A DNA stretch of 64,000 nucleotides, taken from Microbacterium sp. (lineage in GTDB: Bacteria; Actinomycetota; Actinomycetes; Actinomycetales; Microbacteriaceae). Positions within the stretch are counted from its first letter, which is position 1, and every line of letters begins with the position of its first letter. The stretch covers positions 1-64,000 of the forward strand of contig NZ_JAPLAI010000011.1 of assembly GCF_026393345.1 (NCBI RefSeq), read 5' to 3'. The translations under genes were made by a program, and so were the position numbers. Below are positions 11,873 through 27,160 of this stretch, one piece after another. The notes under the pieces were generated by a model. The model was not told where the DNA came from, ran no database searches, and was given only the letters and a program-made list of their open reading frames with translations.

Positions 11873-12724
11873 GTGAAGATCCTGTCGATCCAGTCCGCCG
11901 TCGCCTACGGCCACGTGGGCAACTCCGCCGCCGTCTTCCCGCTGCAGCGGATGGGTGTCGAGGTGCTCCCCGTCTACACGGTGAACTTCTCCAACCACAC
12001 CGGCTACGGCGCGTGGCGCGGGCCACTGATCGCCCCGGACGACGTCCGCGACGTCATCACCGGCATCGAGGAGCGCGGCGTGTTCGGCGAGATCGACGTG
12101 ATCCTCAGTGGCTACCAAGGTGGCGAGGGTATCGGCGATGTGATCCTGGATGCGGTGGCCCGCGTTAAGGCCGCGAACCCGTCTGCCGTCTATGCGTGCG
12201 ACCCGGTGATGGGCAATGCGAAGTCCGGATGCTTCGTTGCCCCTGCGATCCCGGTGCTGCTGCGGGAGCGCGTGGTGCCGGCCGCCGACATCATCACCCC
12301 CAACCAGTTCGAGCTGGGCTTTCTCACCGACACCGAGCCCGCCGAGCTCGAGTCGACGCTCGCATCCGCCGACATCGCTCGCGCGATGGGCCCGCGCACC
12401 GTGCTGGTCACCAGTGTCGAGCGTCCCGACCGGCCCGAGGGCACGATCGAGATGATGGCCGTGAATGATGACGGCGCCTGGATCGTGCAGACCCCGCACA
12501 TCCCGATGAAGGCGAACGGCTCCGGCGACGTCACCGCCGCTCTCTTCAGCGCGCACTACCGCGAGACCGGGAGCGCGGCGGACGCGCTCGCCCGCACGAC
12601 CTCGAGCGTCTGGGATCTGCTCGATCTCACTCACTCGTCGGGCGAGCGGGAGCTGAAGCTGGTCGAAGCGCAGGAGTTCTACGCCCAGCCGCGGTTGCAG
12701 TTCGAGGTCACGCAGGTTCGCTGA
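11873..12724 (+). CDS. pdxY: Pyridoxal kinase (PdxY-like)
   Basis: [46 protein letters not shown]...CDPVMGN...TPNQFELG. Confidence 0.93.
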
Positions 12725-12767: not shown

Positions 12768-12840
12768 TGTCCCACTTTCTGCCGTTATGAGCACCCCAGA
12801 GCGGCAGAAAGTGGGACATATTCTGCAGAAAGTGGGACAT
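12768..12840. repeat. Intergenic three-arm palindromic element A
   Basis: TGTCCCACTTTCTGCCG (12768-12784), perfect reverse complement CGGCAGAAAGTGGGACA (12802-12818), third arm TCTGCAGAAAGTGGGACA (to 12839). Confidence 0.9.
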
Positions 12841-12890
12841 GGTGACGGATGCAGCACGAAGCTGCTGCGCCGCAGCGACGGCAGCGAGAA

Positions 12891-12927
12891 CAGCTACAGC
12901 TACAGCTACAGCTACAGCTACAGCTAC
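12891..12927. repeat. Hexanucleotide microsatellite (CAGCTA)6
   Basis: Six perfect CAGCTA copies 12891-12926, followed by degenerate CAGCCACAGCCACAG. Confidence 0.97.
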
Positions 12928-12959
12928 AACCTCAGCCACAGCCACAGCCTGAGCTAGGT

Positions 12960-13526
12960 CTAGGCGGGCCAGCCGTCGGCGACGGCCTGCCGGACCTCGC
13001 CGAGCAACTGCGGCAGCGCCTTCGTCTTGGCGATGATGGGGAAGAAGTTAGCGTCAGTCGCCCACCGCGGCACGATGTGCTGGTGCAGGTGCGCGGCGAC
13101 GCCGGCGCCGGCGACCTGGCCCTGGTTCATGCCGATGTTGAAGCCGTCACAGCGCGACACGGTGCGAAGCACCCGCATGGCGGTCTGCGTGAGCTCGGCG
13201 ATCTCCGCGGTCTCCTCCGGCGTCGCCTCGTCGTACAACCCGATGTGCCGATACGGGCACACAAGCAGATGACCCGAGTTGTACGGGAACAGGTTCAGCA
13301 GCACGTACGCGGTGCGCCCCCGGTGCACGATGAGACCGTCCTCGTCGGACTTGCCCGGCGCGGCGCAGAACGGGCACTGCTCCACGAGCGGCTCGGGACC
13401 CGCGGCGATGTACGCCATCCGGTGCGGCGTCCACAGCCGTTGGAACTCGTCCGGAACCCCCGGCAGCTCGGCGGCAGACACCAGCCCCGCGATCTGCTCG
13501 GGGCTCACGTCCGCCGACTCGCTCAT
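12960..13526 (-). CDS. HIT-family protein (AP4A phosphorylase/hydrolase-like)
   Basis: ...[29 protein letters not shown] motif HLHQHIV. Confidence 0.92.
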
Positions 13527-27087: not shown

Positions 27088-27160
27088 TGTCCCATTTTCT
27101 GCCGCTATAGGTGCACCAAAGCGGCAGATTTCGGGACATGTTCTGCCGAAAACGGGACAT
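27088..27160. repeat. Intergenic three-arm palindromic element B, homologous in architecture to element A
   Basis: TGTCCCATTTTCTGCCG (27088-27104), CGGCAGATTTCGGGACA (27122-27138), CTGCCGAAAACGGGACA (27143-27159); arm start offsets 34 and 21, the same as element A. Confidence 0.9.

Follow-up and report, generated by a model that had tools for sequence, protein, structure and literature searches.

A three-armed element between convergent genes

We analysed a window of 64,000 nucleotides from a Microbacterium contig, in which a pyridoxal-kinase-family gene and a HIT-domain gene converge on an intergenic region holding three related arms, here called element A. A second element of the same build, element B, lies further along. 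The features are as follows.

11876..12724, forward strand: pyridoxal-kinase-family (pdxY-like) gene (PF08543, E 9.9e-15), a neighbour only
12768..12818, forward strand: element A, 51-bp core of 23+5+23, with inverted half-sites F (12768-12790) and R1 (12796-12818)
12768..12784, forward strand: arm F of element A, TGTCCCACTTTCTGCCG
12802..12818, reverse strand: arm R1 of element A, starting 34 nt after F and matching its reverse complement perfectly
12825..12839, reverse strand: arm R2 of element A (15-nt arm), outer half-site 21 bp (two helical turns) past R1
12960..13526, reverse strand: HIT-domain gene (PF01230, E 6.7e-14), a convergent neighbour only
27088..27138, forward strand: element B, 51-bp core; R1 (27124-27138) is the GAAAT variant, and its pairing with F (ATTTT) is broken
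27145..27159, reverse strand: arm R2 of element B, outer half-site

All three arms described in an earlier sequence-only reading of this DNA were located: F, its perfect reverse complement 34 nt on, and a near-identical third arm, which as a 17-nt arm spans 12823-12839, starts 21 nt after the second and carries one mismatch. Measured on the conserved 15-nt arms, R1 starts at 12804 and R2 at 12825, which gives offsets of 36 and 21. The same reading placed the element between convergent pdxY and HIT genes, and the neighbours do match PF08543 (labelled as the pyridoxal/phosphomethylpyrimidine-kinase family; forward strand, ending at 12724) and PF01230 (reverse strand). Scanning the window with the arm at up to three mismatches returned four matches against 0.12 expected, a number that none of 100 shuffles reached; the fourth match is part of element B (27088).

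Element A is adjoined in the pdxY-HIT gap, at 12890-12949, by a short tandem ACAGCT/ACAGCC array (a CTACAG-type microsatellite). The octamer GGATGCGG/CCGCATCC is common in the flanks of the elements; it occurs 76 times in the whole window against 7.3 expected, a word bias.

Copies and architecture in the genome

The genome from which the window comes (G000) is a Microbacterium MAG of 2.9 Mb in 81 contigs, 88.9% complete. Searching it with the arm at up to two mismatches gave 77 matches, which resolve into 28 elements. In every one of them the inverted R1 stands at +36 from F (15-nt arms), giving a total of 51 bp, and the outer arm R2 lies 21 bp past the core, on either side. This step holds in nearly all 28 copies, the exceptions being one with a step of 22 bp and another (L031) in which R2 has decayed. 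The element measures 51 bp as a core and about 74 bp with the outer arm, and its approximate consensus reads CATGTCCCACTTTCTGYCGTTATGAG-N6-YCATAACGGCAGAAAGTGGGACATGTTCTGCAGAAAGTGGGACATG. Half-sites are conserved, loops and flanks are not, and the flanks of the 28 copies are mutually unrelated. All 28 are intergenic according to a simple codon-bias gene caller, with 10 between convergent, 13 between codirectional and four between divergent genes and one close to a contig end; the convergent share (10/28) is not clearly above that of the window's own gaps (6/31). This anatomy of inverted plus outer half-sites fits a multimeric protein site, one of the possibilities that the third arm had suggested. 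Rfam held no credible match for the element (best E 0.012, every score far under the gathering scores), and no report of the repeat, or of DUF559/AbiEi-linked repeats, was found in the open-access literature searched, most subscription papers and all preprints lying outside it.

Arms as probable half-sites on duplex DNA

The arms fall into variant classes at positions 7-11 (ACTTT, ATTTT, GAAAT, GATTT and GTTTT) and further in (TTATG, CTCTG and GAATG). Likeness between F and R1 of one element was 0.852, compared with 0.853 when arms were shuffled across elements, and no compensatory change between the arms was seen in the 28 copies, F/R1 pairing being no better than shuffled; this covariation test has limited power because copies inside one genome are alike. 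In element B the stem is broken, with ATTTT facing GAAAT. At element A, no intrinsic terminator (a GC-rich stem followed by a T-run) was found. The predicted RNA folding of the element exceeds that of shuffles (z -6.2) and is strong on either strand, which is trivial as the arms are inverted.

The element might instead act as RNA, as a bidirectional terminator or an alternative-hairpin switch. The strong predicted folding of either strand and the several copies between convergent genes would agree with this, but the arms show no covariation, block changes break the stem, there is neither a T-run terminator nor a credible Rfam match, and direct outer-arm arrays make no sense for a hairpin. We consider this explanation very improbable and rejected the hairpin or terminator reading on the missing covariation, the stem-breaking block changes and the missing T-run. 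The alternative hairpins that had been offered as the purpose of the third arm lost their footing with the independence of the arms and the lack of compensatory change, a terminator function found no counterpart at element A, and the covariation between arms that had been looked to as a check was not seen. Given that neither arm covariation nor a terminator was found, protein half-sites on duplex DNA are favoured over RNA hairpins. The arms appear to vary independently, as the half-sites of a DNA-binding protein do, pointing to such a protein, with selection on an RNA stem unsupported.

Distribution, gain and loss

A degenerate form of the core, TGTCCCRNW-N33-WNYGGGACA, is present in 106 of 369 Microbacterium genomes at up to 81 copies per genome, with two hits for the reversed-pattern control. 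The sequence-only reading had staked itself on further copies, and these exist both in the genome (28) and in its relatives. Among 292 other genomes of the family, including five congeners, we found one single variant copy (G282). The inner arms are species-specific (CTGCCG, CGGTCG, TTGCCG, TGGCTG and CGCCGGG). In other species, extra arms extend outward from the core, mostly in steps of 21-22 bp, in a layout (F)n-[F..R]-(R)m, of which the third arm of element A is the shortest case. Whole element units, flanks included, are locally duplicated in other species as well.

At L097-L106 (G463, G300), units and flanks are tandemly duplicated in steps of about 115-270 bp, suggesting local amplification. 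Two contigs of a virus collection matched the degenerate core; one of them, L117, carries unrelated phage-type genes, and we therefore took its match to be due to chance.

The pdxY-HIT gap of 28 congeners holds no counterpart of element A. Elsewhere in the genus, this gap contains other palindromic direct-repeat arrays (L206, L208, L216, L217, L228 and L229) with different feet, e.g. CAGGTGATCGGCCGGGAA with an 18-bp period; these are possibly sites of paralogous nucleases. For element A, the nearest congeners (about 85% protein identity) are too distant to provide a clean empty site, so we used the sister species G475 and G559. They share all ten cores of G559, as judged by near-identical core sequence, and G475 carries three more. 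Two of the extra cores are absent at the G559 loci, where the flanks are 93-99% identical and the gaps around the element measure 225 and 158 bp, exceeding the size of the element. One gap is flanked on both sides by CCGGCG, as would be expected equally of an insertion with duplication or of a slippage deletion. The third extra copy (L275) has no orthologue in the stretches compared. Elements have been gained or lost between these two species.

A nuclease gene bracketed by elements at the pfkA locus

The mobile, REP/BIME-like unit proposed by the sequence-only reading held in so far as the element is dispersed and polymorphic between sister species, and failed in its RAYT partner. The suggested RAYT/TnpA_REP transposase did not turn up, as PF01797 (Y1/HUH transposase) went unmatched in G000 at its 88.9% completeness. 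The linked enzyme, encoded on another contig, is an AbiEi-like plus Vsr/EDxHD-type nuclease. Its gene (about 307 aa) lies between two element copies at a fixed pfkA/prolyl-oligopeptidase locus on contig C70 of the genome. Paired elements about 1.1 kb apart surround the gene in the window's own genome (L051/L126), G300, G352, G368 and G559, and the proteins of these five were used to build a profile. Element pairs about 1.2-1.9 kb apart in G432 and G402 had also seemed like bracketing but enclose unrelated genes, so only the pfkA-locus pairs were kept.

The profile (E ≤ 1e-60) detected the nuclease gene in 137 of 369 Microbacterium genomes. The best 30 protein hits, chosen by score alone, all adjoin pfkA, and for 28 of them a core lies no more than about 250 bp away, in most cases on each side of the gene. 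The gene is present in 54 of 58 genomes with at least five cores versus 83 of 311 others (odds ratio 37, p 2e-22, uncorrected for phylogeny). Four genomes with at least five cores are without a strong homologue of the pfkA-locus subfamily, and one of these four, G636, gave no homologue even at 1e-25 with a wider profile. Ten genomes combine a strong protein match with no 51-bp core. Nine of these have a full-length locus, and TGTCCC arms stand beside the nuclease gene in all nine; at most of these loci inverted TGTCCC arms occur at other spacings, spanning about 47-81 bp. In M. marinilacus (L185), direct TGTCCC arms upstream of the gene are spaced at 32 bp (three helical turns), not 21.

Cores beside the nuclease gene are far closer to the dispersed cores of their own genome than to those of other genomes (similarity 0.725 versus 0.519 ± 0.038, p < 5e-5, 20,000 shuffles), and in seven of nine genomes their best match is to their own genome's dispersed cores. 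A single nuclease gene would explain the dispersed elements.

Insertion-sequence ends offer another origin. Ends of the IS21 type begin with TGT and can bear repeated arms. The element could be what remains of the ends of a known insertion sequence, of this type for example, or a miniature version of one; its TGT start and repeated arms would fit, and the window's own genome contains one strong IstB homologue. Against this, IstB and the elements do not occur together: several of the genomes rich in elements have weak ATPase-type matches only. Besides, the 51-bp core is of constant length and has no interior, and the gene that the elements flank is a different one. No parent insertion sequence for a MITE was identified. 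We set IS21 ends aside because IstB genes do not follow the elements, and rate this origin as barely credible.

The nuclease gene is a free-standing chromosomal gene with elements on both sides. Its neighbours are pfkA and an S9 peptidase gene, with no nucleotidyltransferase toxin gene (AbiEii-type) next door and no recognised defence genes beside it. No homologue was found in phages, and on plasmids the homologues were confined to a Nonomuraea fragment and to proteins with 31-36% identity that large Arthrobacter replicons encode. Homologues in assemblies titled Stenotrophomonas maltophilia P13 and Planococcus sp. APC 4015 (L173, L190) resemble Microbacterium DNA; these assemblies may be contaminated or misnamed.

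The protein and its predicted docking site

The protein fuses an N-terminal AbiEi-like, winged-helix DNA-binding region to a C-terminal Vsr/EDxHD-type nuclease domain. Its fold was taken from the AlphaFold2 model of the M. hominis homologue (mean pLDDT 92), not of the window genome's own protein. With this model, the best solved match in Foldseek was Rv2827c (1zel, E 5.9e-4), an AbiEi-family antitoxin, and the C-terminal domain resembled the catalytic domain of the EDxHD homing endonuclease I-Bth0305I (3r3p, TM 0.80) as well as NGO0050 (3hrl, TM 0.79). PADLOC gave a weak AbiEi match (E 9e-5). Pfam MTES_1575 (PF18741) matched with a best E of 5e-6 and with 19 of 23 members at E ≤ 0.01, and DUF559 was also matched; the Pfam nuclease-domain scores are under the curated cut-offs for the members shown. 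Five residues, E198, D231, E242, H248 and D258 (M. hominis numbering), are invariant in 23 homologues. Judged by their order, E198, D231, H248 and D258 may stand at the E-D-H-D positions.

In S. agalactiae, AbiEi occupies a pair of 23-bp inverted repeats separated by 3 bp, and in M. tuberculosis Rv2827c binds repeat pairs with 13 bp between them, four repeats together; such operators lie upstream of their own gene and take one molecule per repeat, and AbiEi-family proteins autoregulate (PMC7319586). The target of I-Bth0305I, on which it dimerises, is nearly 60 bp long (PMC3943268).

We propose that the element is probably a duplex-DNA docking site for the AbiEi-like plus Vsr/EDxHD-type nuclease, the two forming a predicted partnership of the REP/RAYT kind. 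This reading draws on dispersal, geometry, bracketing, co-occurrence, the matching of flanking to dispersed sequences, the fold and the presence/absence polymorphism, all observed computationally; from these we infer binding, cleavage, autoregulation and mobilisation by the nuclease. The site would consist of an inverted pair of half-sites, each about 23 bp long and separated by 5 bp, with optional half-sites two helical turns outward. The AbiEi-like domain is likely to bind with one molecule per arm, outer arms are likely to add further bound molecules in phase, and the upstream element copy is likely to repress the nuclease's own gene, all of which have good support. With moderate support, the nuclease may cut or nick the bound sites, and repair would then spread the palindromes and drive their turnover in intergenic DNA, a plausible route of mobilisation by the nuclease. 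The nuclease gene itself would remain a single, vertically inherited copy.

Alternatively, the main role of the protein, as a descendant of an AbiEi-like antitoxin, could be that of a transcription factor or a nucleoid-type protein, the copies being selected operators or architectural sites and the nuclease domain acting elsewhere or in regulation. AbiEi-family autoregulators do bind repeats of such a kind, all copies are intergenic, and half-sites are conserved where loops and flanks are not. However, few copies lie between divergent genes and many between convergent ones, where promoters are unexpected; copy number runs from 0 to 81 across congeners; the element is missing from the orthologous pdxY-HIT gap in 28 congeners; copies are gained or lost between sister species; and the presumed catalytic residues are strictly conserved. 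We regard such a regulon as unlikely.

A nuclease fused to an AbiEi-like region, akin to a phage-defence antitoxin family, in genomes with many sites could also suggest self-marking or addiction, in which the enzyme is restrained on chromosomal sites and attacks site-free DNA or acts upon site loss, so that sites protect the host and accumulate. Against this, the neighbours are pfkA and a peptidase gene rather than recognised defence genes, and the number of sites differs between close species without loss of the gene. This seems to us improbable, and the docking site with spread by repair is the reading that we carry forward.

Relatives of the nuclease carry private palindromes

More distant homologues are bracketed by different palindromes: TGTCTC in M. 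barkeri and M. oryzae, TTGAGTGTCC and CTCCCGTCGCGAAA. Around paralogues, one private palindrome often recurs on each side of the gene (TTCGAGGAGCGATGTTTGCTC, GTTCACTTGCGCTGAACGTAC, TTGACTTGCCCTGGATGTAC, GCTCGCTGGTCGCGA and GTTCATCCGTCACC), and the homologues found in Actinomycetales RI_321 (32% identity) and in Nocardioides (35%) are likewise flanked by palindromes of their own. Two of three Arthrobacter plasmid homologues (35-36%) are bracketed by their own palindrome, one imperfectly, and at one bracketed homologue three direct arms precede the inverted arm. A 9-mer palindrome common to both flanks was found at 40 of 71 family loci compared with 0 of 51 window genes, and at 1 of 58 genes at element-selected loci. 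Fifteen of the 71 family loci fail the automatic two-flank test, its looser form included; some of these show arms beside the gene on inspection. Two other palindromes, searched genome-wide, are also dispersed, mostly as arm pairs with fixed spacing. Across the group, most of the nuclease relatives examined appear to stand between copies of a site version private to each.

We consider it evenly balanced whether these systems make up an undescribed selfish or domesticated class in Actinomycetota, in which proteins with an AbiEi-type DNA-binding region and a Vsr/EDxHD-type nuclease would each have a long palindromic operator of their own, with two copies around the gene and tens of others seeded genome-wide, and in which operator and protein would co-evolve and diversify inside one genus as REPs and RAYTs do, by way of double-strand recognition and a homing-type nuclease. 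A common uncharacterised actinobacterial family, the DUF559/MTES_1575-type nucleases with AbiEi-like N-termini, would thereby gain a partner sequence. Many paralogues are flanked on each side by their presumed recognition sequence, which allows dozens of protein-site pairs to be read directly from genomes, and these make binding specificity, the spreading of sites and the reason why genomes keep REP-like repeats directly testable.

Comparison with known systems

The N-terminal half of the protein and the arrangement of its sites recall AbiEi-family antitoxins, which share the fold of the winged helix plus second domain and have paired 23-bp inverted-repeat operators upstream of the gene (PMC7319586). 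The spacing of the operators is 23+3+23 in AbiEi and 23+13+23 in Rv2827c, compared with 23+5+23 in the core of our element. Unlike these antitoxins, the protein carries a fused nuclease domain, its gene has no AbiEii-type toxin gene as a neighbour, and its sites also lie downstream and are scattered through the genome. In the C-terminal fold and the conserved acidic and histidine residues, the protein is like the EDxHD homing endonuclease I-Bth0305I (PMC3943268), whereas its gene is not tied to an intron, an intein or a phage but is free-standing in the chromosome at a fixed locus, and its predicted target is a dispersed inverted repeat. The C-terminal domain also matches the Pfam MTES_1575 (PF18741)/DUF559 nucleases, under the curated cut-off; the open-access literature searched gave neither a function nor a linked repeat for these. 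AbiEi-type operators paired with a Vsr/EDxHD-type nuclease seem not to have been described in that literature, most subscription papers lying outside it.

Dispersed palindromes with a dedicated nuclease are a known kind, from REP/RAYT systems, of which the present element is not a member. As in REP/REPIN and RAYT systems (PMC3116915, PMC3733652), the palindromes are dispersed and mostly extragenic, occur in tens of copies and form inverted pairs of fixed spacing; a single-copy, vertically inherited nuclease gene is bracketed by its own palindromes; and there are several private pairs of repeat and enzyme, as well as local clusters. The enzyme of REP/REPINs is a Y1/HUH transposase, whereas here it is an AbiEi-like plus Vsr/EDxHD-type nuclease; their foot is GTAG or CGTC, whereas here it is TGTCCC (TGTCTC and others in relatives); and they form a hairpin of 20-40 bp, whereas here a 51-bp core of duplex half-sites is extended by further half-sites in direct array. 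Membership of REP/RAYT was rejected on these grounds, namely the lack of a Y1 transposase match in the 88.9% complete genome, the different foot and the different size. With its different enzyme, the element seems to be a so far undescribed equivalent of the REP repeats of bacteria, which suggests that REP-like colonisation of genomes arose with an unrelated enzyme too.
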